This document shows positions 33,428 to 64,000 of a stretch of DNA of 64,000 nt, one piece after another. A program made the translations under genes and the position numbers. The stretch comes from Ilex aquifolium (Eukaryota > Streptophyta > Magnoliopsida > Aquifoliales > Aquifoliaceae): contig OX637409.1 in NCBI GenBank assembly GCA_951799425.1, forward strand, positions 11,752,960 through 11,816,959, written 5' to 3'. The notes below the pieces were generated by a model, which was given only the letters and a program-made list of their open reading frames with translations, had not been told where the DNA came from and searched no databases. Each line of letters begins with the position of its first letter. Position 1 is the stretch's first letter.

Positions 33428-34327
33428 GTGTCCCAGGTCCTATATGAGGTCCAGAAGGAAAAGTTCCTGAGGTGGCCACCTCGGATGAAGGTAGACCTAG
33501 CAAAGAAAGACCCCACAAAATATTGTGACTACCACAGAGACCATGGTCACCACACCGATGATTGCATTCAGCTAAAGAAGGAGATCGAGTTTTTAATCCA
33601 ACGGGGGCAGTTGCGTCGCTTTGTGGCCCATGATAATCAAAATCGAGCTCTTCCACCTCTGCCACCTCAACAACAGGCACCTGCACCACATCAACAACCC
33701 CTGGGGGAGATCAGAGTAATATCTGGAGGGTTTGCAGGAGGAGGAGAATCCAGCTCAGCCAGAAAGGCTCACCTCCGAAGGATCAGAGCCGGAGAAGCTC
33801 TCGAAGTGCATACTGTGTCCAAAGCACCGCGCCTAGACACAGCTATCATTTTTGCAGATTCAGACTTGGAAGGGTGTCAGTATCCCCAAGATGATCCCTT
33901 GGTGGTAAGAGCTGTGGTAGCCAACAGAACTGTTCATCGAGTCCTGATTGACAACGGCAGTTCGGCAGACATCATTTTTGCGTCTGCATTTGATAAAATG
34001 GACATAGGAAGGGAAAAACTCGAGCCTGTGAGTGCTCACTTGCTGGGTTTCTCAGGAGAAAGGGTATTGCCCTTAGGGCCAATTCAGCTTGTGCTCACCC
34101 TAGGTGACCTGCCTTGCCAAGCCACTACAACCGTAAAGTTCCTAGTGGTTGACGCACCTTCTGCGTACAATATTCTGCTTGGAAGACCCTCCCTCAATTC
34201 TATGAGGGCCATCCCATCTGCCTACCACCTGGTTGTCAAATTTTCAACAGAGAATGGAGTCGGAGTGGTCCGAGGATACCAGCGTGTAGCGAGGGAGTGC
34301 TACATGGCATCTGCGAAGAGGAAATAG
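33428..34327 (+). pseudogene. Retand zinc knuckle and protease
   Basis: 299 residues. A Tat-type zinc knuckle CDYHRDHGHHTDDC (about 33526-33567) is followed by a Pro/Gln linker and a retropepsin with VLIDNGSSADIIF (about 33942-33980), the lineage's DNGSS active site, and ILLGRPSLN. Protease would cut Gag-Pol. TAG at 34325 separates it from RT, so Gag-Pol expression is broken here. Confidence 0.88.
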
Positions 34328-34357
34328 GTTGAGAACATCCAACTGGATGAACTTGAC

Positions 34358-37300
34358 ATGAGAGATGAGCTGGAAACCAGACCAATCCCATCAGAAGAAC
34401 TGGAGCCTATACAACTCGACGAGGAGCCAGAACATCTTGTTTATGTAGGGTCCAAGCTGAGCAAAGAGATTAAAGAACTTCTCATCCAATTTCTGAGGAA
34501 AAATATGAAAGTGTTTGCCTGGAGACAAGAAGACATGGAGGGTATCGACTCCTCAGTCATCACACATAAGCTCAATGTGAATCCTACCTGCAAGCCCATC
34601 AAACAAAAGAGGAGGAGTTTCGCCCCAGAACGTCAGAAAGCCATCAATGAAGAGGTCAGCAAACTTCTCCATGCTAGAGCCATTAGGGAGGTGGATTACC
34701 CAGTGTGGCTAGCCAATGTCGTCCTCGTTAAGAAGACCAACGGTAAATGGCGCCTCTGCATTGACTTTACTGACCTTAATCAGGCTTGCCCTAGGGACAG
34801 TTTCCCTTTACCTCGGATATATTTGATTGTGGATGCCACCGCTGGACACGAGCTCCTCAACTTCATGGACGCCTTCTCTGGGTATAATCAGATTAGGATG
34901 GATCTTAATGACCAGAAGAAGACCTCCTTCATAACCGAGCAAAGGACGTACTGTTATCAGGTTATGCCCTTCGGATTAAAGAATGCTGGAGCCACTTATC
35001 AACGCTTGGTGAATAAGATGTTCCAAAAACAGATTGGACGACCATGGAGGTTTACATTGATGATATGCTGGTCAAATCACTGAAAGCAAAGCTCCACATC
35101 AAGCACTTGGCAGAATCTTTCCAGGTCCTGAAGGAATACAAAATGAAGCTCAATCCCGCCAAGTGTGCCTTTGGAGTTTCCGTTGGGAAATTTCTGGGTT
35201 TCATAGTTAACAGCAGAGGAATAGAGGCTAACCCAGAAAAAGTAAAGGCAGTACTGGATATGCAACCGCCATCTAACACAAGGGAGGTACAACGTCTGAC
35301 GGGAAGAATAGCTGCCTTAAGTCGATTTGTATCCAGATCAAGCGACAAGTGTCAACCCTTCTTTCAAATCCTAAAGAGGGTATTCCAGTGGGATACCCAG
35401 TGTGAGGAAGCGTTCAAAGCGCTGAAAGATTACCTGAGCTCCCCACCCATTCTTGTAAGCCTGCTGGAAGGCGAGGTCCTTACTCTTTACTTAGATGTCT
35501 TAGATTTCTCAACAAGTACAGCGTTTGTAAGGGAGCGGAACAGAGCTCAGCAACCAGTTTATTACTGTAATAGAGTTATGAGGGGGCAGATGAGAGATAT
35601 CCAAAGATGGAGAAACTTGTTTTAGCCTTAGTTACGACTGCCAGGAGGCTTAGGCCATATTTCCAAGCTCATACTATCGAGATCCCTTCAGATCAGCCGA
35701 TGAAGCAAGTATTACGAAAACCAGAGATTTCGGGAAGGCTAGTTAAATGGGGCGTCAAGCTCAGTGAGTTCGACATTAGGTACAAGCCTAGAACAGCAAT
35801 CAAAGGATAAATACTGGCAGATTTCATTGCAGAATTCACAACAGGGACATCCATGGAGGCCACTCAGCTGGTACCTGACCTTCCCACATGGAAACTTTCA
35901 GTAGATGGAGCTGTCAACGCCCAAGGCAGCGGTACTGGCCTAATTTTGACCTCCCCTGATGGAATAGATGTTGAATATGCACTTAGGTTTGGGTTTAAGG
36001 CCTTGAACAATGAGGCAGAGTATGAGGCTGTTATAGCAGGGCCCAATCTTGCTCACTTAATGGAGGCAGAACAGCTGGAGATCTGTAGTGACTCCCAGCT
36101 CGTGGTAAAGCAGATAGAAGAGTCATATGAGGCTAAGGGCGAGAAAATGATCATTTACCTCAAAAAGGTACAAGAATTGATCAAGAAGTTTGTGCAAGTC
36201 AAGATTATACATGTCCCTAGATCAGAAAATTCTCAAGCAGATGCGCTGACGAGACTAGCAACTGCTTTACAGGAGAACTTTGATAGGTTGATACCAGTAG
36301 AACATTTGGCGGAGCCATCAGTAAGAGTTGAGAAGGAAGAAGTGTTCCCAGTTCTTTCCCCACCAAGCTGGATGGACTCCATTAGGGAATATCTTCAGAA
36401 CGGAGCCTTGCCAGCAGACCCTAAGGAGGCCGCAAAGATAAAGGTAAGGTCAGCCAGATTCTCCATTTTGCAGGGAAACTTATATAAGCGAGGATTCTCG
36501 ATGCCTCTCCTCAAATGTGTAGGAGATGAGGATGCTAATTACATACTCAGGGAGATCCATGAAGGAATTTGTGGAAATCATATCGGAGCTCGAGCACTTG
36601 TAGGAAAAGCCTTGAGGCGGGGATATTATTGGCCCACTATGCTAAAGGATGCCACCGATCTGGTTAGAAGGTGTAAGGTATGTCAGATACATGCCAACGT
36701 CTCTCATTGTCCACCAGAGCTCCTAACATCGGTGGTAAGCCCTTGGCCCTTCCAACAATGGGGACTGGACATTCTTGGCCCTCTTCCCACCAGCGTAGGT
36801 CAGTGCAAATTCGTCATCATTGGGGTGAACTATTTCACTAAATGGACAGAGGTGGAACCTCTGGCAACAATCACAGAGCAGAAGATTCAGAGTTTCACAT
36901 GGAAGTCTATAGTATATAGATTTGGGGTTCCTAGAGCAATTGTTTCTGACAATGGGAAGCATTTTGACAACCCTAAGTTCAAAAAGTTTTGTGCAGAACT
37001 AGGGATAAAAAATTATTTCTCGGCCCTAGCTCATCCACAGTCAAATGGACAAGTAGAGGTGACAATCAGAACGATTAAAGCAGCCTTGAAGACCAAACTT
37101 GAGTCTTTGAAGGGAAAATGGGTAGAATATATTCCAGAGGTGTTGTGGGCATACAGAACAACTCCCAGGACAGCAACTCAAGAAACACCGTTTGCTTTGG
37201 CTTTCGGAACCGAAACAGTATTGCCTGTGGAGATAGGATTCCCATCCCCCAGAACTGAGTTCGCAGAGTCTGAACACAACGATGAATCCCTTCTGCTAAA

Positions 37301-37602
37301 TCTTGATCTCCTAGATGAAAAGAGAGAAAGAGCTTTGCAACACATTCAGAGTTATCAAAGAAAGACCGCCAGGTACTATGACAAGAAGGTCAGACACAGA
37401 AGCTTCAAGATAGGAGATCTTGTGCTTAGAAAGTTGTTGCTTGCAAGAAGGGATCCCACGCACGGGAAATTGAGGCCAAATTGGGAAGGCCCCTACATCG
37501 TTTCAAAAATAATTAGACCATGAAACTATGAGTTGCAAACAGAAGAAGGAAAGGTCCTACCTCATTCTTGGAATGCGAAGCACCTTAAGAAGTTCTTTTA
37601 GT
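34358..37602 (+). pseudogene. Retand pol: RT, RNase H, archaeal-type RNase H, integrase
   Basis: RT begins near 34560 (KLNVNP, LCIDFTDLNQACPRDSFPLP, MPFGLKNAGATYQR); a frameshift near 35040 precedes the catalytic EVYIDDMLVKS (35045-35077). A second frameshift near 35610 lies in RNase H, and a TAA near 35808 precedes ILADFIAEF. The second RNase H (WKLSVDGAVNAQGSG..ICSDSQLVV..SQADALT) spans about 35889-36260. Integrase has QWGLDILGPLP, a second Asp in IVSDNGKHF and AHPQSNGQVEV, where E is the third catalytic residue. A TGA at 37521 cuts the last about 27 codons (..NYELQ..LKKFF). The gene order is diagnostic of Tat; this copy is dead. Confidence 0.92.
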
Positions 37603-38579: not shown

Positions 38580-39924
38580 TGTTGTCCAAATTTGATATTG
38601 ACAATTTACGTGCAAGTATACACGATCAACAAGTAATAAAGTGATAAGTAGAGTATCGTTCCCACGAAGAATTATTACCAATAATTTCCAAGTACTAACT
38701 TTATATCAATTCAATTTTATTTAAACAATTGGAATTGAACTATGAAATAACTAGTTTAAAACTAAATCTAAAATTAATAATCAAGGATTGAATTTAACGG
38801 ATTAAAGAATTTAAGATTACAACTTCCCCTAATGCTTCGTATAAATCTTTCCACTCTCTTTCCAGTTAATTGATCAAAATAAGTTGTTAACTGAGACTTC
38901 AAAATTATTTATCAAACCTCTTCCGATAGTAAGATAAACATATCTCTCCCAATTAAATTACTATATTCCTATGCAAAATAAGTTGGAATAGATTCATTAA
39001 GTTCAAACTCTCATAAAAGTTACACACGACATATAGGTATATTCCTATCTTATACACAAACCCAACAATTCAATCCTAAGAAGAATCAACCAGACGCATG
39101 TCATCATATTCCGATCTAAACCTAGAATTCATCTCCCAATTTCATCTAGGTTATCGAATTGATTGATGACCAAACAATCATATATTAAGCACAAAATATG
39201 ACAAACAACTCATGTATGATCAATAGAACTAGAATCAAGAGTAGATCAATTTAACTAGACATTAGGTTCCGTTGCAATCTTAATACAAATTTAGTTCATA
39301 ATGTAATTGAAAAACATCATTCTCAAATTAAACAACATCTCAGAAAATCAAGAAGTAAAAGTAAGAGAAAAGAATGAAAACTTAGTTGCAATCTTCAACT
39401 CCTCTCTAGCCTTCAAGTCTGATTTTCTTTGTGTCAGTTCCTTCGATTTTTGCCTTCAATTTTCTATCAATTCTTGGTCTCCTCCTTATATTTTCAGCCC
39501 CCAAAATCAGTCTATTTATATCCCCACTCAAACCCTAGTATATATGAGGCATTCGAGTCCAATTTCGGGTCAAAAACAAGTCGGAATTCGCGTCCAGAGC
39601 CAACACAAGCGCAACTGCGCTAAAAATCAGCGCAGGGGCGCTGAGTTACTGATTTTCCAGTGCAAGGGTGCTGGTTCTGGCGCAGGGGCGCGGGTCCGCT
39701 TTCAGGCCTAAAGTTGCTTTGTTCCTTAGCCTTCAAAAATCCAACATTTAGGCTCCAAATTGACCTTGTTTCCTTCCACATGATTTGTTTGCTTCCAAAT
39801 GATGATTCATACCAAATAACATCAAAACACACAAAACAAAGAAAAAAGAACATAAAATAATTGAAAACTTGCAAATTCCTCAAGCCGAAAATATTCAATT
39901 CGTAGGTATAAAACTCACTCATCA
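38580..39924 (-). repeat. 3' LTR of element E
   Basis: 1345 bp, plus-strand TGTTGTCCAAATTTG...ACTCATCA. Minus-strand TATA box at 39513-39520. GC-rich self-complementary words (GCGCAACTGCGC, AGCGCAGGGGCGCT, GCGCAGGGGCGC) lie 90-175 bp upstream of it (39608-39692). It is 40 bp longer than the 5' LTR, in this GC-rich part. Confidence 0.92.
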
Positions 39925-39940
39925 AATACCCCCAAACTTA
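39925..39940 (-). other. Polypurine tract of element E
   Basis: Minus strand TTAAGTTTGGGGGTAT directly before the LTR start TGATGAGTGAG, preceded by CTTGAGGACAAGCAAAGAT, a familiar Athila-type 3' end. Confidence 0.8.
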
Positions 39941-41354
39941 AATCTTTGCTTGTCCTCAAGCAAAATACTAAAAACAAAAACTATAAAAATTAATCAACCA
40001 ACTACTCAAACAATGGATCAATATGAATTTGAATAATGGCCCCAAAAGTTACTACAAAAAATTAATTCACGGGAAACTTCAAAACAGTGCAAAGTCTATC
40101 AACTAAACATACTCCTTAATTTTACCTCTGGTCATGACCCTTTAAATACATGTACATATCCGAACTATCAAGCTAGTCATCACCCAAATACATTTACGTA
40201 ATCAAATACTTCATAAGAGATACTCAATATCAATTCTCTGAACTTACGTTTCACATCAATCTCCGCTTATTAAGGCAACCATATAACTAGAAAGTCCACA
40301 TATTTTTTTTCCTCTCACTCTTTCTTTTTTTTTTTTTTCTTTTGGTGAGTGCATTTTATGCTCCATCTCACCTCCTATTGAGCGAGTGCGTTTTACGCTC
40401 TCTCGCCTTTTCTTGAACGAGTGCGTTTTACGCTCCATCTCGTTCTCAACATGTGTTATGAGTGAGTGCGTTTTATGCTCCATCTCTACTCACCACATGC
40501 CCCTTTCTTGTCTCTTGTCTTCCTATTCTTTTTTCTTTCTAACTCATGAAGGATCAAATCAAAATAATTTTAAAAAACACCCTTTTTTTTTTTACTAACC
40601 CATCATAACCAATATTTCCCCCAAACTTATATGAATGCCTAAACTTTGCTTTGAATGATGCTTAAATAAGTTTTCTAGAGTTTCACTGATATCTCCCACA
40701 AGCACTTAACCAAATAAATTCTCTGAATAATAACTAATCAAAAAGATTGATATGTACTCATGCATGAAAGGATCATAAACAGTGTAAAACCAACTAGTAT
40801 GTTAAACTAAAAACTCAACATGTTCATCAATTTCCCTTGAATTAACAATTAAACCATTTCATCATTGGTCATAATCAAATTCTCTCAACCCATTGCTCAA
40901 GTTGTAATAAAACATGCAATCTAAATGCATACCTAATAATGCAAATGCAAACAAGAAAACACTCCCAAACTTAAACTAAATATTGTCCTCAATGTATAAA
41001 GTAGAAAAAATTAAGACAGAGGATTTCCCTGAGACTTCGCTAGTTCGCATCATCGTCAGCGTCCTCGTCGTCCGCAGAGTCGGGAGTGTATTCGGGAAAC
41101 ATAGGTGGGTTGTTCTTGGCTCCTTGTAAGGCTTTGTGAGTGCTCCAACTTTATGTTCAATCCTTGGGACCTGCAAGCAATTGACATACCAATTAAAATG
41201 CACTAACTAACTAACTAACTACATTATTTTTTATAAAAAACTAAATTAAAATAAAATGAAATAAAACTTAGAAACTAAAATTTGGGTTGCCTCCCAATTA
41301 GCGCTTGTTTTATAGTCTTTAGCCTGACTACTTCCTGTTTCATCCCGGGTCGAC
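39941..41354 (-). other. Non-coding 3' internal region of element E
   Basis: AT-rich, no domain in any frame except the gag-pro tail at 41270-41354. It contains the 40345-40494 repeat. Runs of T (40326-40340 and 40583-40594) are present. It ends at the TSD of element F (ATGGG, 41355-41359). Confidence 0.7.
40345..40494 (+). repeat. Four copies of GAGTGCGTTTTAYGCTC
   Basis: Four near-identical units (first begins near 40347, last ends near 40482), spaced 30-50 bp, each with GCG-TTTTA-CGC able to form a small hairpin and mostly followed by CATCTC. It lies inside the 3' region of element E. Confidence 0.8.
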
Positions 41355-41359
41355 ATGGG

Positions 41360-43233
41360 TGATGAGCACAAAATATTGTATATTTCAAGGCCTCATTACA
41401 TGCATTTTAACTCAACTTTTGCATCTAAGTACTTAGAGTTAGCCGATTTTATAAATAATGTTGAATTCTCGATATTGCATGTTTTTATAGCTTAAATCAT
41501 GTATTTTAGGACCTTGCAACTATGATGGATGTGTGGTGAGGGCATGGAAACATTACATGAAGATTCGGAGGCTTAAAAGTGAAGAAATCAAGGAGGTATT
41601 GATGTTTGGGAACAAAAGCACCAGCAGCCACACCACTGGGTTGAAGAGCCTCGGTTTTACTCCATTTTGACCATGATCCACTTCGAATCTGAAAAAGTGA
41701 AAAACATGAAAGTTGTATATCTGGATGTCTTCTGTATTGTGTCAAAATTTTATCTCAATCCAACGGCTGGATCAAAAGTTATGCCGATTCTAAGAAAAGT
41801 GGTCCGGAGCAGAACAGTACCGGTACACAGTACCGGTACTATACCGTTCCGGTACTGCGTACCGGTACTTCGAACTCCAGAAGGTTTAGAGTACCGGTAC
41901 ACAGTACCGGTACGCTCCCAGAACAGCCCAGAACACCTGCAAACTCTTCTCCACGTGCTTGGGGGTCCCACCATTGGTTCTCTCACACCTAGCCCGACAT
42001 TTTATCCCTACAATCATGCCTCCTACACCATAGTTAAAGACTTTGGAGGCTTGACATTGAATGAGAGGAGAGAGAAGGGGTGAAGCCTGGGGAGTGCAGG
42101 CTAAGCCTGTGCTAGCCTGCCATACTCATCCATTCAGCCCCCTATTGATGGGAGGCTTGCTCACTCATGCTAGAGGACCCTATGGACGAAAATGCAGAGG
42201 CTACACACCATATATTCAGCATTACACAAGTTCTTGAAGGGTGGCTACCTAAGCTTAGAAAATCCAAGGAAGAAGATGATGAATAGTAGATAGAAAAGCT
42301 TAGATTTTTCCATTCTTTTCTCCATTTCAATTGTTGTAAGCTTTAATGTCTTGTAATCCTTAACTCTTGCACTTTAATCTCATCTATGTCAAGTTTAGTT
42401 CAATGTTCTACATTTCACCATTGTTGTTTAAGTTTTCTTCATTTTCATGCTTTGAAATGGGTATTAAATATTTTTCTTCATAGTTTACGATTTTTGGCAT
42501 TGAGTTAAGTTTTAATCTCCATTTCAATACCATGTCTCTTTACATATTGTATGTCTTTCCTTTATGCATGAGTAGCTAGATTTTTAGTTGGCTAATCCAA
42601 GGGAGACCTCCTCTTGGGTGTGCCATTTCAACTCATTTTCTTTCCTCCTCTCGGTGTACGATGGTTCGGTTTGACTGAGTTGGGGGTGAGGACGTGGTTG
42701 TGAGTCTTTGATATCCCGTAGGCATTGTCACGGGTTATGCTTGGATCCTCACCTCCCTTTAGTCCCGAGCTTCCCACGAAACAATCGTTCATCTATGCAC
42801 CATTGGGGGAAGGCTTGAGTTGATTTGGTATTCCCATTGGAATGACCTCTTCAGATTAACCAACACTTGTTTTTCTTGCATTTTCATTACAAACACAACT
42901 CTACAAAACAAACTAAAAGATTTTACATTTTCTTTACCTTTTGCAAAATCACCTTCACACAACTTGAACTTTCCTTCCCTGAGGAGACGACCTTGGAATA
43001 CTTTTCCAAGTAAAACACCGACACACAAAAGACTCTTTGCGATTGGGGAGCACTTTTGTTCACACACCCACATTTCATTTCATTCACATTTTGTTCATTC
43101 CATTTTTCACCAATCCGTTGTTGCCTAATCTCTTGCATCACCCCGAGGGAGAGTGACACTCCCTTTCACACATATTCCATATACACATGTCAAAGGGTGA
43201 TGTTTAGGGGTTGGAAACAACAACGTTTTTGAT
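41360..43233 (+). repeat. Left inverted LTR of element F
   Basis: Plus orientation from TGATGAGCACAAAATATTG to ..AACAACAACGTTTTTGAT; the terminal CAATCA of the right copy is replaced by a T run. A cluster of GTACCGGTAC palindromes spans 41817-41913 (five perfect, one variant). Confidence 0.88.
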
Positions 43234-44097
43234 TTTTTTCATTTTAAAATTTTTTTGTTGTATAAATACCCTTTCTATCCAATCTATCCAAACATAGCAA
43301 GGATAATGATTCAAAAGTCTCAACCAAACCGAGATGTGGGCAAGTTTATGCAATACAAAAGATGGAGTATTCAATTTCTCTTTAAGAGTCTCTACATTTA
43401 ACTTCATTTCAATGCCCTCCCCAAATTGAAAAATGTGAATCTCAACACCACCCTTAGATGGAAAAATGACCTTGGGCTCATTAGCCTCATGTGAGATGAT
43501 ATCCTCATTAAATGTTTCACAATCTAGAGTGGTGGGAGATTCAACATCACTATGCATTTCATTGGTATGATCATCCTCAATACATTTACTATGTTCCAAC
43601 TGTTGTTCTTCATCCATAGCAATTATAGCATTAGTCAATGTATCAAGTTGTTGGGTTATTTGGGCATTGAATTCCATTTGGTATTGCATAAAATCGCACC
43701 AAATATTTTCCAATTCTTCTTCGGTTGAGTTCCCGTATGTTGGATATTGGGAAAATTCATTTGGTGGTGTGAGATTGGATGAAAAATCATGAGGTTCATT
43801 CTCCCAACCATAACTCGGATAACTCGGTGTAACATAATGATTGGGGTTAAAATTTTCGGAGGCCAAAAATGAATTTGAACCTTTGCATGCAAAGTCTTGA
43901 ACCAGATAATTTCTTGGGCATTCATTAGTGAGGTGTCCATATTCACCACAAATTTCGCAAATGTTTTCAAAATAAGAGGCCATTCTTGGGCACTCACTAG
44001 TGATGTGCCCATAGTCATCACAAATCTCACACACATTTTCATAATATGGGGCATTTGATACATTTTCATAGAAATTATAAGACATAATACAAAACAC
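43204..44097 (-). CDS. Gag-like ORF of element F with two zinc knuckles
   Basis: 297 residues in one open frame, ATG at 44097. Near the start are two CCHC knuckles, CEICDDYGHITSEC and CEICGEYGHLTNEC (about residues 22-60), then an Asn/Tyr/Pro-rich stretch and an acidic middle (EEQQLEHSKCIEDD). No capsid core, protease or RT. The last about 10 residues come from the inverted left LTR, so the native C-terminus is lost. It follows the primer site by 112 bp. A nucleic-acid-binding role is inferred from the knuckles; a second in-frame Met follows closely. Confidence 0.7.
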   Translation of the reverse strand: MFCIMSYNFYENVSNAPYYENVCEICDDYGHITSECPRMASYFENICEICGEYGHLTNECPRNYLVQDFACKGSNSFLASENFNPNHYVTPSYPSYGWENEPHDFSSNLTPPNEFSQYPTYGNSTEEELENIWCDFMQYQMEFNAQITQQLDTLTNAIIAMDEEQQLEHSKCIEDDHTNEMHSDVESPTTLDCETFNEDIISHEANEPKVIFPSKGGVEIHIFQFGEGIEMKLNVETLKEKLNTPSFVLHKLAHISVWLRLLNHYPCYVWIDWIERVFIQQKNFKMKKIKNVVVSNP

Positions 44098-44208
44098 AAA
44101 CTAAAACAAAATATTTACAAGTTAGACGTCATACCTTGGCCCGTGATGAAAATCACGAGACTTACCTATGCCGTCCCAAAATCACCTTTGAACTCGACGC
44201 TTAACCTT

Positions 44209-44225
44209 CCCCGGCAACGGCGCCA
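44209..44225 (-). other. tRNA-Asp primer binding site of element F
   Basis: CCCCGGCAACGGCGCCA on the plus strand is a perfect complement partner of the plant tRNA-Asp 3' end, 3 nt from the LTR. It exists only at the right LTR, showing which LTR is the genuine 5' LTR. Confidence 0.9.
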
Positions 44226-44228
44226 AAA

Positions 44229-46118
44229 TGATTGATCAAAAACGTTGTTGTTTCCAACCCCTAAACATCACCCTTTGACATGTGTATATGAAATATGTGT
44301 GAAAGGGAGTGTCACTCTCCCTCGGGGTGATGCAAGAGATTAGGCAACAACGGATTGGTGAAAAATGGAATGAACAAAATGTGAATGAAATGAAATGTGG
44401 GTGTGTGAACAAAAGTGCTCCCCAATCGCAAAGAGTCTTTTGTGTGTCGGTGTTTTACTTGGAAAAGTATTCCAAGGTCGTCTCCTCAGGGAAGGAAAGT
44501 TCAAGTTGTGTGAAGGTGATTTTGCAAAAGGTAAAGAAAATGTAAAATCTTTTAGTTTGTTTTGTAGAGTTGTGTTTGTAATGAAAATGCAAGAAAAACA
44601 AGTGTTGGTTAATCTGAAGAGGTCATTCCAATGGGAATACCAAATCAACTCAAGCCTTCCCCCAATGGTGCATAGATGAACGATTGATTCATGGGAAGCT
44701 CGGGACGAAAGGGAGGTGAGGATCCAAGCATAACCCGTGACAATGCCTACGGCATATCAAAGACTCACAACCACGTCCTCACCCCAACCCAGTCAAACCG
44801 AACCATCGTACACCGAGAGGAGGAAAGAAAATGAGTTGAAATGGCACACCCAAGAGGAGGTCTCCCTTGGATTAGCCAACTAAAAATCTAGCTACTCATG
44901 CATAAAGGAAAGACATACAATATGTAAAGAGACATGGTATTGAAATGGAGATTAAAACTTAACTCAATGCCAGAAATCGTAAACTATGAAGAAAAATATT
45001 TAATACCCATTTCAAAGCATGAAAATGAAGAAAACTTAAACAACAATGGTGAAATGTAGAACATTGAACTAAACTTGAAATATACTTGACATAGATGAGA
45101 TTAAAGTGCAAGAGTTAAGGATTACAAGAAATTAAAGCTTACAACAATTGAAATGGAGAAGAGAATGGAAAAATCTAAGCTTTTCTATCTACTATTCATC
45201 ATCTTCTTCCTTGGATTTTCTAAGCTTAGGTAGCCACCCTTCAAGCACTTGTGTAATGCTGAATATATGGTGTGTAGCCTCTGCATTTTCGTCCATAGGG
45301 TCCTCTAGCATGAGTAAGCAAGCCTCCCATCAATAGGGGGCTGAATGGATGAGTATGGCAGGCTAGCACAGGCTTAGCCTGCACTCCCCAGGCTTCACCC
45401 CTTCTCTCTCCTCTCATTCAATGTCAAGCCTCCAAAGTCTTTAACTACGGTGTAGGAGGCATGATTGTAGGGATAAAATGTCGGGCTAGGTGTGGGAGAA
45501 CCAATGGTGGGACCCCCAAGCACGTGGAGAAGAGTTTGCAGGTGTTTTGGGCTGTTCTGGGAGCGTACCGGTACTGTGTACCGGTACTCTAAACCTTCTG
45601 GAGTTCGAAGTACCGGTACGCAGTACCGGAACGGTATAGTACCGGTACTGTGTACCGGTACTGTTCTGCTCCGGACCACTTTTCGTAGAATCGGCATAAC
45701 TTTTGATCCAACCGTTGGATTGAGATGAAATTTTGATACAATACAGAAGACATCCAGATCTACAACTTTCATGTTTTTCACTGTTTCAGATTCGAAGTGG
45801 ATCATGGTCAAAATGGAGGAAAACCAAGGCTCTTCAACCCAGTGGTGTGGCTGCTGGTGCTTTTGTTCCCAAACACCAATACCTCCTTGATTTCTTCACT
45901 TTTAAGCATCCGAATCTTCATGTAATGTTTCCATGCCCTCACCACACACCCATCATAGTTGCAAGGTCCTAAAATACATGATTTAAGCTATAAAAACATG
46001 CAATATCGAGAATTCAACATTATTCATAAAATTGGCTAACTCTAAGTACTTAGATGCAAAAGTTGAGTTAAAATGCATGTAATGAGGCCTTGAAATATAC
46101 AATATTTTGTGCTCATCA
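44229..46118 (-). repeat. Right inverted LTR (5' LTR) of element F
   Basis: 1890 bp, minus orientation, TGATGAGCAC...GATCAATCA. The GTACCGGTAC cluster is at 45565-45661. ORFs in it repeat those of the left arm and are not genes. Confidence 0.9.
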
Positions 46119-46123
46119 ATGGG

Positions 46124-46946
46124 TACTTGAGGTCTTTTCGTGATCAATGTCGCCGCCCCAATATTGCTTCTGTCTCTGCCCCTTCACCTTGAAAATTCTT
46201 TTCGAATTGGCTTCCTTGACTTTAATCGCTCCATGTGGGAACCTCTCCTCTTTATATAGCTTGACATTCTCAAATGGATCTGAAATACAACTTCCTACGA
46301 ATACCTCATTCACTGCCTTGTCAACCATATCAACTCGAAAACATTCTTCCACTTCCTCTGGAAATTTCATAGCTGAAAATACATTGAATGTAACCTCTTG
46401 ATCTTGGACTCGCATAGTTAGCTCACCTTTCTGTACATCGATAAGTGTTCTCCCCGTTGCTAAAAATGGTCGCCCAAGAATAATAGGTATTTCCCTATCT
46501 TCCTCACAGTCTAAAACTATAAAATCAGCTGGAAAAATGAACTTATCCACTTTAACTAGAACGTCCTCAACTATGCCCCTTGGATAAGTGAGTGATCTAT
46601 CCGCAAGTTGCAATGTAACATTAGTAAGCTTATCTTCTTTCAAACCCAATTGTTGATAAATTGAGAGTGGCATTAAGTTAATACTAGCTCCCAAGTCACA
46701 CAATGCTTTCTAAAAAAACTGGCTGCCTATTGTGCATGGAATTATAAAGCTACCCGGATCTTTAAGCTTTTGTGGTAGCTTCTTTTGAAGAATAGCACTG
46801 CACTCCTCCGTAAGTGCCACTATCTCAAAATCACCTAGTTTTCTCTTCTTTGACATAATTTCCTTCAAAAATTTCACATAGTTAGGCATTTGCTCCAATG
46901 CATCTGCGAAAGGGATATTTATTTGGAGCTTCTTAAACACTTCCAT
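46124..46946 (-). pseudogene. Retropepsin of element E (copy 1 of the duplication)
   Basis: Minus-strand frames give QINIPFADALEQMPNYVKFL (46946-46710), a stop, then CDLGASINLMPLSIYQQLGL (D-L-G-A active site), LADRSLTYPRGIVEDVLVKV, DCEEDREIPIILGRPFLAT and GELTMRVQDQEVTFNVF. This is the Athila-type protease. A TAG at about 46707 breaks the frame just before the active site, where copy 2 is open. It ends at the TSD of element F. Confidence 0.85.
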
Positions 46947-46967
46947 GAATTTAGAGAACTGCTTATC

Positions 46968-47726
46968 CTACTTCTGTTTCTGCAAACGTTGTGGAAATGG
47001 CACAGGAGGCACAATAGGTCTCAAATTACCTCCCTTAGAAATTACATTTAGATCACTTTCCTTCTTCTCATGTTCCACATTCTTGCTAACTTTTATTTCA
47101 CCCTTGCTATTATCTCCACGTGACTGTTTTGGAGTTCCACTGACAACCTCAGGTAACTCTTTTCCACTTCGTAATGCAATAGCATTGCAGTGCTCCTTAC
47201 CTTCTCTCTTAGGATTGATCTCTGTATCACTCGGTAGAGTGCCTTGAGGTCGGTTGTTAATGGTAGTAGCAAGTTGACCCATTTGGTTTTTCAGGTTTCG
47301 GATTGATACATCTAGATTGTTCATCCTTGTCTCATTCTGTGCTATGTACCTGGAAAGCAGCTCCTCCAAATTCGACTTCTTTTCTTGCTGTGGTGGAGCT
47401 TGATTCTGAAAGCCTGGTGGGTATGATTGTGTTGGAGCAGAAGTTTGGGCTTGATTATTATTCCAAGACAAGTTTGGATGAGTCCTCCAACTAGGTTTAT
47501 AACTGTTGAAATTATTGCCATGTTGTTGCCTGTTGAAGTTACCAACGTATTGTACCGACTCTGAACTAATTGCACATTGATTACTCGGATGGTTCCCATC
47601 ACACAATTCACAAACAACTGCCACACTCTGAATAGGCTGCACCCCTAAAGCATCAATCTTCTTTGTCAACGTAGCAACTTGTGCAGCAATTGCAGTAACT
47701 GTATCGACTTCATAAATCCCTGCCAC
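46968..47726 (-). pseudogene. Gag C-terminus with zinc knuckle, element E copy 1
   Basis: 252 open residues: YEVDTVTAIAAQVATLTKKI, knuckle CELCDGNHPSNQC (C-X2-C-X3-H-X4-C), a Gln/Pro/Asn-rich stretch, then LEELLSRYIAQNETRMNNLD and ALRSGKELPE. This is the usual Athila region between capsid and protease. It ends in a stop just before the protease segment. Confidence 0.85.
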
Positions 47727-47903
47727 CTTTGGCTAATTGATCCTTGTAGAGGGCCACTAATAATTATTGGCAGCCATCGTCTCCAATAACTCATAAGCTT
47801 CATTGAAAATTTTCCCCATTAATGCCCCTCCTGTAGCTGATTGATCCTTGTAGAGGGCCACTAATAATTATTGGCAGCCATCGTCTCCAATAACTCATAA
47901 GCT

Positions 47904-49150
47904 TCATCGAAAATTTTCCCTATCTTCCTCACAGTCTAGAACTATAAAATCAGCTGGAAAAATGAACTTATCCACTTTAACTAGAACGTCCTCAACTATG
48001 CCCCTTGGATAAGTGAGTGATCTATCCGCAAGCTGCAATGTAACATTAGTAGGCTTCTCTTCTTTCAAACCCAATTGTTGATAAATTGAGAGTGGCATTA
48101 AGTTAATACTAGCTCCCAAGTCACACAATGCTTTCTCAAAAAACTGGCTGCCTATTGTGCATGGAATTATAAAGCTACCCGGATCTTTAAGCTTTTGTGG
48201 TAGCTTCTTTTGAAGAATAGCACTGCACTCCTCCGTAAGTGCCACTATCTCAAAATGACCTAGTTTTCTCTTCTTTGACATAATTTCCTTCAAAAATTTC
48301 ACATAGTTAGGCATTTGCTCCAATGCATCTGCGAAAGGGATATTTATTTGGAGCTTCTTAAACACTTCCATGAATTTAGAGAACTGCTTATCCCACTTCT
48401 GTTTCTGCAAACGTTGTGGAAACGGCACAAGAGGCCCAATAGGTCTCAGATTACCTCCCTTAGAAATACATCTGGATCACTTTCCTTCTTCTCATGTTCC
48501 ACATTCTTGCTAGCTTTTATTTCACCCTTGCTATTATCTCCACGTGACTGTTTTGGAGTTCCACTGACAACCTCTGGTAACTCTTTTCCACTTCGTAATG
48601 CAATAGCATTGCAGTGCTCCTTACCTTCTCTCTTAGGATTGATCTCTGTATCACTCGGTAGAGTGCCTTGAGGTCGTTTGTTAATGGTAGTAGCAAGTTG
48701 ACCCATTTGGTTTTCCAGGTTTCAGATTGATACATCTAGATTGTTCTTCCTTGTCTCATTCTGTGCTATGTACCTGGAAAACAGCTCCTCCAAATTCGAC
48801 TTCTTTTCTTGCTGTGGTGGAGCTTGATTCTGAAAGCCTGGTGGGAATGATTGTGTTGGAGCAGAAGTTTGGGCTTGATTATTATTCCAAGACAAGTTTG
48901 GATGAGTCCTCCAACCAGGTTTATAACTGTTGAAATTATTGCCATGTTGTTGCCTGTTGAAGTTACCAACGTATTATACCGACTCTGAACTAATTGCACA
49001 TTGATTACTCGGATGGTTCCCAGCACACAATTCACAAACAACTGCCACACTCTGAATAGGCTGCACCCCTAAAGCATCAATCTTCTTTGTCAACGTAGCA
49101 ACTTGTGCAGCAATTGCAGTAACTGTATCGACTTCATAAATCCCTGCCAC
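47904..49150 (-). pseudogene. Gag C-terminus and truncated protease, element E copy 2
   Basis: The same order as copy 1 but with frameshifts in the knuckle region (CELCAGNHPSNQC) and linker; the protease part (48428-47904) is open through CDLGASINLMP and stops at the duplication joint after DCEEDRE. Confidence 0.8.
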
Positions 49151-49169
49151 ATTTGGCTGATTGATCCTT

Positions 49170-49822
49170 GTAGAGGGCCACTAATAATTATTGGCAGCCA
49201 TCGTCTCCAATAACTCATAAGCTTCATCGAAAATTTTCCCCATTAATGCCCCTCCTGTAGCTGCATCGATATTGGTTCGGGTAGCACTAAACAACCCATT
49301 ATAGAACGTTTGAACTTGCAACCACTCAGGAATACCATGGTGATGGCATTTTCGGAGTAAGTCTTTGAATCGTTCACAAGCTTCATAGAGAGTCTCAGAA
49401 TCATGCTGTGCGAATGAAGTGATGTCGTTCCTCATCCTTGCAGTTTTAGCTGGTGGAAAGAATTTAGCTAAGAATTTTTGAGATAAATCTGACCACGTAG
49501 TAATAGAACCCGAAGGCAATGAATGCAACCAATTCTTCGCCTTATCACGAAGTGAGAAAGGGAAAAGTTAGAGTCTAATTGTATCCTCAGAAATCCCATT
49601 GTATCTGAATGTGTCGCATATCTCCAGAAAACTCACCAAATGATCGTTTGGGTCATCGTTAGGCAAACCCCCAAATTGCACTGAATTATGAATCATTTGA
49701 ATGGTACCCGGCTTGATCTCAAAATTGTTTGCTTGAATTGCGGGTCTTTGAATGCTCGATTGTATTTCCGTCACAAGTGGCATAGCATAATCCCTTAATG
49801 ATTTCTGTTCATCTTCAGCCAT
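49170..49822 (-). pseudogene. Gag capsid region of element E
   Basis: ATG at 49822 (MAEDEQKSLRDYAMP). Athila capsid blocks: NNFEIKPGTIQMIHNSVQFG, DPNDHLVSFLEICDTFRYNG, then an in-frame TAA at about 49568, then NWLHSLPSGSITTWSDLSQK, FLAKFFPPAKTARMRNDI and LYEACERFKDLLRKCHHHG. Only one stop interrupts the core, so it is fairly well preserved. It lies about 220 bp downstream of the primer site. Confidence 0.88.
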
Positions 49823-50037
49823 AGCTTTTTGGTTGTTTACTTCTTGACTCTATTTTCGCAAGTTTCGGAGCCTTCTTTCGATTTCGCCTTCGTACGGTAG
49901 TAGCTCCTGACCTGTAGATCGTGTTTGTATACAAAATTCAAGAGTGCTTGCGAAAACAATTAAAACAGAAAATTAAATAAGTTTAAACTAAGATCAAATT
50001 GATTGAAATTAATATTGAAATAATTACTAGAATAAAT

Positions 50038-50054
50038 CCCCGGCAACGGCGCCA
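50038..50054 (-). other. tRNA-Asp primer binding site of element E
   Basis: Perfect 17-nt match to the plant tRNA-Asp 3' end (CCCCGGCAACGGCGCCA on plus), 6 nt from the LTR edge. Confidence 0.92.
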
Positions 50055-50060
50055 AAAACT

Positions 50061-51365
50061 TGTTGTCCAAATTTGATATTGACAATTTACGTGCAAGTAT
50101 ATACGATCAACAAGTAATAAAGTGATAAGTAGAGTATCGTTCCCACGAAGAATTATTACCAATAATTTCCAAGCACTAACTTTATATCAATTCAATTTTA
50201 TTTAAACAATTAGAATTGAACTATGAAATAATTAGTTTAAAACTAAATCTAAAATTAATAATCAAGGATTGAATTTAACGGATTAAAGAATTTAAGATTA
50301 CAACTTCCCCTAATGCTTCGTATAAATCTTTCCACTTTCTTTCCAGTTAATTGATCAAAATGAGTTGTTAACTGAGACTTCAAAATTATTTATCAAACCT
50401 CTTCCGATAGTAAGATAAACATATCTCTCCCAATTAAATTACTATATTCCTATGCAAAATAAGTTGGAATAGATTCATTAAATTCAAACTCTCATAAAAG
50501 TTACACATGATATATATGTATATTCCTATCCTATACACAAACCCAACTATTCAATCCTAAGAAGAATCAGCCAGACGCATGTCATCATATTCCGATCTAA
50601 ACCTAGAATTCATCTCCCAATTTCATCTAGGTTATCGAATTAATTGATGGCCAAACAATCATATATTAAGCACAAAATATGACAAATAACTCATGTATGA
50701 TCAATAAAACTAGAATCGAGAGTAGATCAATTTAACTACACATTAGGTTCCGTTGCAATCTTAATAAAAATTTAGTTCATAATGTAATTGAAAAATATCA
50801 TTCTCAAATTAAACAACATCTCAGAAAATCAAGAAGTAAAAGTAAGAGAAAAGAATGAAAACTTAGTTGCAATCTTCAACTCTTCTCTAACCTTCAAGTC
50901 CGATTTTCTTCGTCTTGGTTCCTTCGATTCTTGCCTTCAATTTTCTATCAATCATTGGTCTTCTCCTTATATTTTTAGCCCCCAAAATCAGTCTATTTAT
51001 ATCCCCACTCAAACCCTAGCATATATGAGGCATTAGAGTCCAATTTCGGGTCAAAAACAAGTCGGAATTCGCGTCCAGAGCCAACACAAGCGCAGCTGCG
51101 CTGAGTTACTAGTTTTCCAGCGCAGGGGCGCGAGTCCGCTTTCAGGCCTAAAGTTGCCTTGTTGCTTAGCCTTAAAAAATCCAACATTTAGGCTCCAAAT
51201 TGACCTTGTTTCCTTCCAAATGATCTTGTTTGCTTCCAAATGGTGATTCCTACTAAATAACATCAAAACACACAAAACAAATAAAAAAGAACATAAAATA
51301 ATTGAAAACTTGCAAATTCCTCAAGCCGAAAATACTCAATTCGTAGGTATAAAACCCACTCATCA
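50061..51365 (-). repeat. 5' LTR of element E
   Basis: 1305 bp, TGTTGTCC...CTCATCA on plus. TATA box at 50994-51001 (minus) with GCGCAGCTGCGC and AGCGCAGGGGCGC about 80-130 bp upstream. Confidence 0.92.
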
Positions 51366-57728: not shown

Positions 57729-60700
57729 TGTGACGCCCCAAATTTCCGGGGGTCCTTTATTAACCGTTGACCATCCGTCAACCCGCGGAAATACTCGTGA
57801 TAGTCGTATAACCCGACACCACGTCACTCACATGCTTTTAATCGGATTTACCATCCACAAGGTCAATTATACCTTCATTTATGTCCATTTATGTCATAGA
57901 AACCAAAGAAAACAAAGCCCAAAAGCATGGCTAAGCATTTTGAGAATTTCAAGTTTTTGGAAAAACCTTCCGGAAGGTAGATATACACCTACCGGAAGGT
58001 CGCTGAAGGAACTGTTACATGAAAAGGATCAATTTCAAGAACTTCCGGAAGGTCGACATCAGTAGCAAAAACCTTCCGGAAGGTCCATTCCAGTAGCCAA
58101 AACCTTCCGGAAGGTTTATTCCAGAAAACAAAACCTTCCGGAAGAACTCGGCAGTCAAAAAGAAACCCAAGGCAAAACCTTCCGGAAGGTTCATTCCAGT
58201 AGACAAGTCCTTCCGGTAGGTTTTACTCCAGTAGCTAAAATCCTCCGGAAGGTTTATTCCAGTGGGCAAAACCTTCCGGAAGGTATTAGCCGTGAACAAG
58301 GCATCCAGGGTTTTTAGCAAAACCTTCCGGAAGGCCGACATACACCTTCTGGTAGGTTTTCAGACTGTGAGCAAAAATAATGGATTTCTTTCCCCTCCAA
58401 ACCATCCTTAAAGCTACCCCATACACTCCAAACTCATCCAACACATGTTTAATGAGATTTTCCATATAATACACAACTCATACGAGCTCTATCACAATTC
58501 ATTCCATATATTTACATCTCAAAATGGAATTCTTACAAAAACTTTACTAAATAACCATAAAAGCCACAAGTCGGCTTTCTTCAACTTTGGGGCTCGAATT
58601 GGGAGCCGTCCGCCGGCGTGAACCCCGCACCTGAAATGTTGTCCCACGAAGGGTGAGCCACGCTCAATAGGATATCCTCCTACAGAGGCTACTCCCCAAC
58701 CTAAGTGCATATGAAATGCGCACATGCAACTAATCAACAAGCATCAACCAATCTAACAAGAATATACACCTCAATGTTAGAAAGCTACCATGCTATACTA
58801 TGTCATGCCATGATATGAGATGGAACTCACTCATGCACCTTGTCCCGAGTCTTCCCCGACTCACACCACACAATGCAAAAGCCAATGTGTATGAACCCGT
58901 CTATTGACGGAAAAACCCTCCCAATGATCGTTTGAGATAAAAGTTATGTCTTTATAAAAAAATCAAATCATTGTTTGAGGCTACCCATTGGATGGGTGTT
59001 TTTATATAACAAAATCTTGTGTCTTCCTGGGCAACGGATTTTGGAATCGCACCGCCGGCTCCGTGGGCCTATCTACACTTTTTGGACTTGCACCGTCGGA
59101 GTGTATGAACCAGTGGTTCCGGGTTTTTCACCCGAGGGAGTGTCTAGCCCTACTTGCTTTACCCGACACAAGTTTTCCTTATGCAATGCAACCGTGCAAC
59201 TCAGTCGGATCTTCGATCCCGACTTTCCCGAGTTCACATACCAACCACCAAGATTTGGTGTTTGATCCGCAACACATGCACACACCCACACTCATGCCTA
59301 TGACCCATGAATGCGATGTCAACTCACCCACACATACTCATGTCTTATAACCATGAATGTGATGTACCCATGTGAATGCAATGTAATGTACCAATTGCAC
59401 TCTAACCACATGTTCGATATGTATGAGTGCCATATGAACAATGTCAAGATAAATCTACATATTCATGGTACTTCATATCATAAGCACATAAATACCATAA
59501 TTCAACACATTATCAATATATAGCAAGCATGCCTATATCAACATTTCATCCAATAACCATTTTCAAACATGTTATCACATAAGCATGCAATTAACATAGC
59601 AAACTCATCAATACATCATTCTAGGCATTTAATCAAGGAAGTGATCTAAGTCATTTCTCTAATTATTTTGTAAGTGTTAAGGCTCTAACACCCTTCTTTT
59701 CCATACCAACATCTCATATAAGCAACTAAGGTGAGGAATAATCCCAAATAGGAAGAATCCTACACGTCATCATGTATCACAAGAAATTACTCTAAGTAAT
59801 TTCTACACCACCATTTCAAGATAGAATATATTGTATCCACTTTCAACATCCATCTAATCATGTCACCAACAACAGGTAAAAGCCCCATTTAATCAAGTCA
59901 CCACCCATAGGTAAGAGTCCTATACAAGGTCTCCTACATCAACCCCTTTTTACATAAACATCATAGCATGAAATAAGCCCAAGACAGCCCATAAGTTTAA
60001 CCCAAAACAGTCCGCAATTTCAGCCTCAAGGCAACCACAATTTCAGTCCCCAAACAACCATAAAAAAAAACAGTCCACTAATTAGCCACAAAACAATCCA
60101 CTAATTAGCCACAAAACGTTCCACTAATTAACCACAAAACAGTCCCCAAATTAAGCTACATAGCAGCCCCGAAATAGGCTATAAACCAGTCCACTATTTC
60201 ATTCACTTCCACAAAGATATACAAGTAACTTCCATATATCAATTGTAAGCTAGAATTTAGCTTAAGTTATTCCTATAATCAATTCTTCATTTCCTTAAAA
60301 ACATACAATTCCAATTGTGAATCACACCACCCAAACATGTTATTCCACTTTCGTTCAAATAACAACTTTTATCCTTTAAGGCATTTCATCAAACGTCATA
60401 TAAGCATAATGTCATGTAACCACAAGGTATAGCCCACACACATCAATTATCATCATCAAACTCATGAAATCATGTCTAGTGATTTCTACATAACTATACC
60501 AAGATAGAATTTATTCTATCCATTTCTTAATATCCACATATCATAATCTCCCAAGAGAATTATAAAGCAACCACCTCTAAATGTCAATTCCATTTAGTAT
60601 TTCACGTAACCAATTTTCCCATATCCATTTTCTACACTTCAAGTTCCTTTATGAAATTTACCCAACAAGTAAATATATACACCCATTTCATACCAACCTT

Positions 60701-63535: not shown

Positions 63536-64000
63536 TGTGACGCCCCAAATTTCCGGGGGTCCTTTATTAACCGTTGACCATCCGTCAACCCGCGGAAATA
63601 CTCGTGATAGTCGTATAACCCGACACCACGTCACTCACATGCTTTTAATCGGATTTACCATCCACAAGGTCAATTATACCTTCATTTATGTCCATTTATG
63701 TCATAGAAACCAAAGAAAACAAAGCCCAAAAGCATGGCTAAGCATTTTGAGAATTTCAAGTTTTTGGAAAAACCTTCCGGAAGGTAGATATACACCTACC
63801 GGAAGGTCGCTGAAGGAACTGTTACATGAAAAGGATCAATTTCAAGAACTTCCGGAAGGTCGACATCAGTAGCAAAAACCTTCCGGAAGGTCCATTCCAG
63901 TAGCCAAAACCTTCCGGAAGGTTCATTCCAGAAAACAAAACCTTCCGGAAGAACTCGGCAGTCAAAAAGAAACCCAAGGCAAAACCTTCCGGAAGGTTCA
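63536..64000 (-). repeat. 5' LTR of element B (partial)
   Basis: The first 465 bp match 57729-58193 with one visible difference; includes the start of the CCTTCCGGAAGG array. The rest lies beyond the window. Confidence 0.92.

Follow-up and report, generated by a model that had tools for sequence, protein, structure and literature searches.

How can a retrotransposon with its two long terminal repeats (LTRs) in inverted orientation come to be framed by an intact target-site duplication (TSD)? The question is raised by an element in a 64,000-nt stretch of the Ilex aquifolium assembly (contig OX637409.1 of GCA_951799425.1), referred to here as the window, within which all positions of the element are counted. 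A preliminary description of this DNA had noted inverted LTRs with ATGGG on both sides and had proposed that an inverted-LTR complementary DNA (cDNA) was inserted by two unique 3′ (U3) ends. The observation is confirmed by our analysis: the inverted arms are 97.9% identical and the empty target site is contiguous in all 40 scored copies of the host element, and the proposed origin is supported by the TSD, by the sister relationship of the LTRs, by a unique derived inner joint and by two further cases in the same genome. We consider it very probable that the locus is one insertion of an aberrant reverse-transcription cDNA with U3 at both termini, inserted by integrase.

The element starts after a first copy of ATGGG (41355-41359), which lies directly outside the left U3 tip, with an inverted LTR on the forward strand (41360-43233), intact from the U3 tip TGATGAGCAC onward except for the final 6 bp of U5 (CAATCA), which are missing. 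This LTR is followed, on the reverse strand, by the surviving 5′ third of an internal region, which comparison with relatives delimits to 995 bp (43234-44228), and by an ordinary 5′ LTR of 1890 bp with TG...CA ends (44229-46118; sequence TGATGAGCAC...GATCAATCA), directly outside whose U3 tip lies the second copy of ATGGG (46119-46123). Both outer tips are thus U3 tips, each reading TGATGAGCAC inward, in agreement with the identical termini reported before, and the LTR tips form a perfect 4-bp inverted repeat, TGAT/ATCA. The primer site described beside the right LTR is also present: the primer-binding site (PBS) TGGCGCCGTTGCCGGGGA is found on the reverse strand at 44208-44225, 3 bp inside the right LTR, and the same motif follows U5 in ordinary relatives; it is presumably of the tRNA-Asp type. 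The copy therefore has the TG...CA ends, the PBS adjoining U5 and the short TSD of an LTR retrotransposon, and departs from that definition in having inverted rather than direct LTRs. No polypurine tract (PPT) was found beside either LTR of the window copy.

The two arms (41360-43233 on the forward strand against 44235-46118 on the reverse strand) were aligned over 1885 columns with two gaps, and the two LTRs differ by 27 substitutions (17 transitions and 10 transversions) and by two indels: compared with the right LTR, the left has a deletion of 11 bp and an insertion of 1 bp. Assemblers are known to be prone to error at long inverted repeats, so that the structure might be a false palindrome. 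Against such an error stand the 27 differing sites and two indels, the private derived bases on each side, the TSD in the flanks and the presence of the same structural class at three loci, and we regard it as very unlikely.

The availability of many copies of the host sequence allowed us to assess what the target site looked like before the insertion. The element lies within another LTR element on the reverse strand (38580-51365), which has direct LTRs (38580-39924 and 50061-51365, 93.2% identical) and a TSD of its own, TTCTC. When the host flanks were joined with a single ATGGG (216 bp) and searched against the assembly (800 Mb, 103 contigs), the empty site was contiguous in every one of the 40 host-family copies scored among 511 candidates, 39 covering all 216 bases and one covering bases 1-214, and ATGGG was kept base for base in the three host copies that were read (L045-L047). 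The probability of a chance match of two host 5-mers is 0.0018. Because the host flanks are contiguous in all scored copies, ATGGG is a genuine 5-bp TSD, and the insertion removed nothing from the host.

We compared the two LTRs of the window copy with 29 other LTRs of the family (31 in total, identity by substitutions only). They are 98.56% identical to each other, while the next nearest is a solo LTR with 96.3% identity to either of them; the six LTR pairs within single relatives are 97.1-99.0% identical, a seventh pairing, of an element with a nested LTR, being set aside. By a simple allele count over the differences between the window LTRs, seven alleles are private to the left copy, 10 are private to the right and 10 remain unassigned. 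As the window LTRs are mutually nearest among the 31, both would belong to one insertion, and by this comparison the left and right LTR look like the pair of a single element.

Ordinary members of the family show what is missing from the window copy. We analysed the 20 copies that best match the internal piece, out of 39 listed in addition to the window copy (of 1825 candidates, 40 were scored). In all 20 the internal region runs on past the point at which it breaks off in the window, and the DNA missing there, including the PPT, amounts to 2058-2124 bp in the six relatives measured. The ordinary relatives have an internal region of ~3.1 kb, an Asp-type PBS, a PPT (mostly AAGTTGGGGGGTG) that precedes the U3 tip of the 3′ LTR, and mostly 5-bp TSDs (among 10 with both ends in view, judged by eye, seven exact, two matching at four of five positions and one unmatched). 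The direct-LTR relatives that the preliminary description had proposed to look for do exist, as pieces of both LTRs lie in direct orientation in 19 of the 20, the remaining one (L030) showing no 5′ LTR.

At the break point the relatives read ATCAA (17/20), ATCCA (2/20) or ATTAA (1/20), followed by TGGGCG or a near variant. The reverse-complemented LTR end reads TGATTG-ATCAA-AAACG where the window has AAAAAA-ATCAA-AAACG, so that the joint lies at a 5-bp microhomology, ATCAA (43229-43233, reverse strand), that the inverted U5 end has in common with the internal region. The absence of the final CAATCA from the left LTR is thus confirmed, but given this microhomology the loss may be anything from 6 to 11 bp and not necessarily 6. 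The T/A-rich end of the spacer, previously suggested to have aided a template switch, is not what marks the switch point; the microhomology is. A sequence tag across the joint has a single zero-mismatch occurrence in 800 Mb, the next best having two mismatches (15 matches with up to three mismatches against 14 for a reversed control). The same junction, which it had been proposed to seek elsewhere in the genome, was therefore found only once: the inner joint is derived and unique in the genome.

The joint also bears on suicidal autointegration, in which integrase would have joined the cDNA's own U5 end into the same cDNA and the product would then have been rescued into the genome. Autointegration is known to yield inverted two-LTR circles, which in the accessible portions of the reports are described as non-productive (PMC4751563, PMC2644782). 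It would be expected to leave a processed ...CAATCA at the joint and to free no adjoining U3 tip, whereas the joint in the window lacks a CA end and the last 6-11 bp of U5 are gone. We give this route next to no probability, and a plain autointegration product is ruled out by the absence of the CA end.

Two further U3-U3 insertions were found in the same family, with TSDs GTGGC and CGTCC and with other joints. The first was detected among the LTR matches as a place on contig 2 with LTR pieces in both orientations (C2:28317178-28323056). Its first bases, next to ..AAGGTGGC, are a U3 tip, and at its other end an outward-facing U3 tip borders on GTGGC, its TSD. In between, the order is 5′ LTR, PBS, short filler, inverted LTR piece, 3′ internal part, PPT and U3 to about position 674; at the far end a short loop follows, after which U3 runs back to the tip. 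The inverted LTR piece after the PBS (L048 2379-3460, LTR positions 1836 to 847) and the filler bases replace the 5′ internal part. The arms are 98% and 94% alike, and the three U3 copies are 97.1-98.2% identical to one another, the nearest of 31 other LTRs reaching 93.8-95.0% (substitutions only). Furthermore, the empty site is contiguous in 40/40 scored copies of the host family in question (of 1713 candidates), and the joined host reading frame at this site is open.

The second further case lies on contig 1 (C1:24690389-24699206), with CGTCC on both flanks and U3 at both outer tips. Here, an LTR running from its U3 tip to position 1852 is followed by CCAAAA and then by a whole ordinary element in the opposite orientation, U5 end first; in this ordinary element the two LTRs share 97.0% identity, or 98.1% by substitutions. 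The CCAAAA that adjoins the buried U5 end corresponds, in reverse complement, to the TTTTGG found at the U5/PBS boundary in this family. Since such bases beside a 3′ LTR would be expected on free cDNA, their presence suggests a free cDNA end.

These cases can be used to weigh a history in which two independent insertions of opposite orientation were later merged by a deletion. Nesting does happen in the family, as the solo LTRs in L026 and L040 show, and the contig 1 case, with arms that are 84-87% alike, could be read in this way. At the window locus, however, a single ATGGG in contiguous host flanks would require both insertions to have hit the same base, and none of the 29 other LTRs compared is as close to either window LTR as these are to each other; the contig 2 case also has a contiguous empty site, with U3 copies that are mutually nearest. 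Merging is highly improbable in our judgement, and for the window locus the empty site and the LTR relations rule it out.

An inversion after insertion deserves more attention. Suppose that an ordinary element broke 4-6 bp inward of its outer U5 tip, that the left LTR was flipped and rejoined at the shared TGAT, and that ~2.1 kb of internal DNA was lost: the exactness of the U3 tip and the absence of 6 bp from the inner end would then both be accounted for. Indeed, because the tips form a 4-bp inverted repeat, rejoining at TGAT could yield an exact U3 tip: TGAT would stay with the flank and ATCAA would open the flipped piece, so that the break need have cost only two bases. This history nevertheless needs a break within ~3 bp of one tip, and the U3 tip must have been picked although the lost internal DNA alone offers 13-16 TGAT sites (six relatives); the same exactness would be needed again at two loci with other joints and other TSDs. 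The earlier judgement that an inversion is less likely is thus strengthened by the three cases, although at the window locus alone an inversion is less far-fetched than had been claimed, given the TGAT/ATCA tips. As the U3-U3 structure recurs at three loci, we consider a post-insertion inversion improbable.

A cDNA with U3 at both ends could have arisen from a known intermediate of reverse transcription. At each of the three loci, base 1 of U3 is the first base of the inverted arm, which ends at LTR position ~1884 in the window, ~633 in the contig 2 case and 1852 in the contig 1 case. In established retroviral reverse transcription, the PPT primer sets the 5′ end of plus-strand strong-stop DNA at the U3 tip, and the 3′ end lies wherever synthesis stopped; arms with an exact U3 start and a variable stop match these properties. 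We propose that an incomplete plus-strand strong-stop DNA was joined to a sense-strand template during reverse transcription. At the window locus, the switch would have taken place at ATCAA/TTGAT, close to where the gag-like open reading frame (ORF) ends; at the other two loci it would have been in U3 or at the U5/PBS end. DNA synthesis after the switch would then have run to the other end and produced a molecule with U3 at both ends. With the internal U5 end buried, integrase would have been left with two U3 ends to pair, followed by an ordinary 5-bp staggered insertion. Alternatively, a broken cDNA may have been joined by end joining to a strong-stop LTR duplex, a step that would give the same sequence and is indistinguishable from a template switch here. 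The accessible part of a review (PMC11054761) depicts a concerted-integration assay in which viral-end oligonucleotides of one kind only are used, which we read as showing that two identical ends can be paired.

Several points weigh against an aberrant cDNA with two U3 ends. No cDNA intermediate was observed. According to the same accessible part of PMC11054761, both the U3 and the U5 end must be acted on for integration during infection. At the window locus, the TGAT/ATCA tips leave room for an inversion, and the LTR substitutions are mildly uneven (Kolmogorov-Smirnov p = 0.055; largest gap p = 0.05), a borderline signal that we left unused as a possible sign of two RNAs. In the contig 2 case, the 5′ U3 is only 93.7% and 91.8% like the other two when gap columns are counted, and the contrast with other LTRs is smaller than it first seemed (81-86% with six LTRs, at most 95.0% with 31); moreover, the inverted internal LTR piece has no clear origin, being 82-88% like the LTRs compared. 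The inverted LTR of the contig 1 case is only 84-87% like its partners, the nearest other LTR reaching 90.8%, so that a co-packaged second element, or coincidence, is needed. We therefore count the contig 1 insertion, whose TSD is known from its matching flanks, as a weaker case than the other two.

To estimate how common such insertions are, we used a pattern for the U3 tip, which gave 3006 tips genome-wide and none for the reversed control; pairs were counted among 100 tips listed, all on contig 1. These included 12 direct pairs spaced by ~5 kb and four pairs facing outward at distances of up to 14 kb, the latter comprising one nested solo LTR (L026), one pair with matching flanks (CGTCC) and two unmatched pairs. 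A further 30 LTR places examined at both LTR ends revealed no U3-U3 arrangement, which is not a full test, as the other element end was unread at two 5′ LTRs (C3:20567915 and C13:22381985) and the tip was lost at C4:30463054. Among these 30 were 17 solo LTRs with an exact TSD and one with a mutated tip, five 3′ LTRs, four 5′ LTRs and two more with a mutated PBS, and the tipless one (C4:30463054). The numbers suggest, as a guess, that U3-U3 insertions are of the order of one per hundred insertions of the family; the sample is small, with one U3-U3 case among the 100 listed tips, the contig 2 case coming from a different, similarity-ranked list. A more general claim, that plus-strand strong-stop DNA in this plant family regularly strays to sense templates and that integrase inserts U3-U3 cDNAs as readily as normal ones, making them a standing structural class, is one that we hold tentatively and at slightly less than an even chance.

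The same survey gave further information on the family. Solo LTRs are common, with matching 5-bp flanks and neither PPT nor PBS in 17/30 places. Two runs of three direct U3 tips ~5 kb apart, known by tip positions only (C1:24036194-24046262 and C1:27444179-27454330), fit what would be expected for three-LTR complexes like those of PMC1950507. One ordinary relative (L036) carries the identical TSD ATGGG at another locus, and the family may favour ATGGG-like sites. The U3 of both window LTRs (41814-41913 and 45564-45664) carries a palindromic AGTACCGGTAC motif in repeated copies, which could fold into strong hairpins.

The ORF of the window copy (43204-44097, reverse strand) contains a zinc knuckle, and its final codons run through the joint into the inverted LTR. 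It reads KKI/KNVVVSNP across the joint (marked by the slash), where two database homologues end KKIHGQRVISELKPD and KKIHERKVISELKPD; a second protein search with an alignment of the ORF returned only the same two database proteins. The preliminary description had called this ORF gag-like; its presence is confirmed, whereas for the label the sole Pfam matches are zinc-knuckle models. Scans of viral contigs with this ORF and with the host protein found no relatives. The family, not assigned to any named one, is presumably a non-autonomous gypsy-type group, LARD- or TR-GAG-like.

The host element, which we take to be gypsy-type by its protease and zinc-knuckle ORFs, has a 1.35-kb direct duplication in its gag-protease region (46490-47839 and 47915-49263, 97.9% identical) and a repeat with a 104-bp period at 47732-47920. 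From the insertion site to its 3′ LTR only ~1.4 kb remain (39925-41354), without a long ORF, and a protease-like ORF reaches the other side of the site. The shortness of this ORF-poor part and the ending of the protease-like ORF at the site indicate that the host copy seems to lack reverse transcriptase and integrase. No protein match was obtained for the final part of the host protein. Elsewhere in the window, 33428-37523 holds what appear from their ORFs to be the remains of a second gypsy-type polyprotein (protease, reverse transcriptase, RNase H and integrase-like stretches), and a 465-bp direct repeat of 99.8% identity lies at 57729-58193 and 63536-64000, the second copy reaching the window end.

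If our interpretation is true, the integrase serving this family needs no pair of one U3 and one U5 end, and a rearranged cDNA from inverted switching still inserts with a proper TSD. With three cases in one family, the frequency of such events becomes measurable genome by genome. On a practical matter, annotation tools that require direct LTRs would split U3-U3 copies into solo LTRs and fragments, and the class would be missed by LTR finders built on direct repeats. Kilobase inverted repeats formed in this way could seed hairpin RNAs and are thus a possible source of silencing. Furthermore, U3-U3 copies would serve as a fossil record of reverse-transcription errors, preserving the points at which strong-stop DNA stopped and landed.

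How does the element compare with known systems? Its own non-autonomous gypsy-type relatives have direct LTRs, a PPT and a 3′ internal part, whereas the window copy has inverted LTRs and neither of the other two. Inverted LTRs call to mind DIRS-1 of Dictyostelium, which is not known to be flanked by a TSD. As in DIRS-1, ORFs lie between inverted LTRs; according to the accessible text of PMC5633606, however, DIRS-1 uses a tyrosine recombinase and circular intermediates, while the window element has a TSD and direct-LTR relatives. A DIRS-type element is ruled out by the TSD, and the ORF matches no recombinase model in Pfam.

Closer likenesses are found among products of faulty reverse transcription. 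The template-switch complexes of grasses have three LTRs and two internal regions with identical outer LTRs, and were inserted by a standard integrase reaction (Sabot and Schulman 2007, PMC1950507). Like them, the window element would be a single insertion, with a 5-bp TSD, of a cDNA rearranged by abnormal template switching, and its outer LTRs are closely alike. Unlike them, it has inverted LTRs with U3 at both ends and has lost part of its internal region: instead of an internal third LTR and two complete cores, there are two LTRs and one internal region reduced to a third. PMC1950507 describes no inverted LTRs, and the 'opposite orientation' mentioned in the accessible part of PMC2151762 refers to polymerase chain reaction primers, not to LTRs. 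The inverted two-LTR circles of retroviruses and Ty1, as far as the accessible portions of PMC4751563 and PMC2644782 describe them, share with the window element a rearrangement at the cDNA stage that inverts the LTRs; they are circular, unintegrated and joined by integrase at a processed end, whereas the window element is linear, integrated, flanked by a TSD and joined at a microhomology short of the U5 end. For inverted LTRs, template switching, autointegration, U3 ends and strong-stop DNA, at the level of titles and opening lines of abstracts, with subscription journals mostly outside the scope, we found no report of an integrated U3-U3 or inverted-LTR element with a TSD. Within the literature searched, the nearest published structures are thus the template-switch complexes with TSDs and the inverted two-LTR circles of autointegration.

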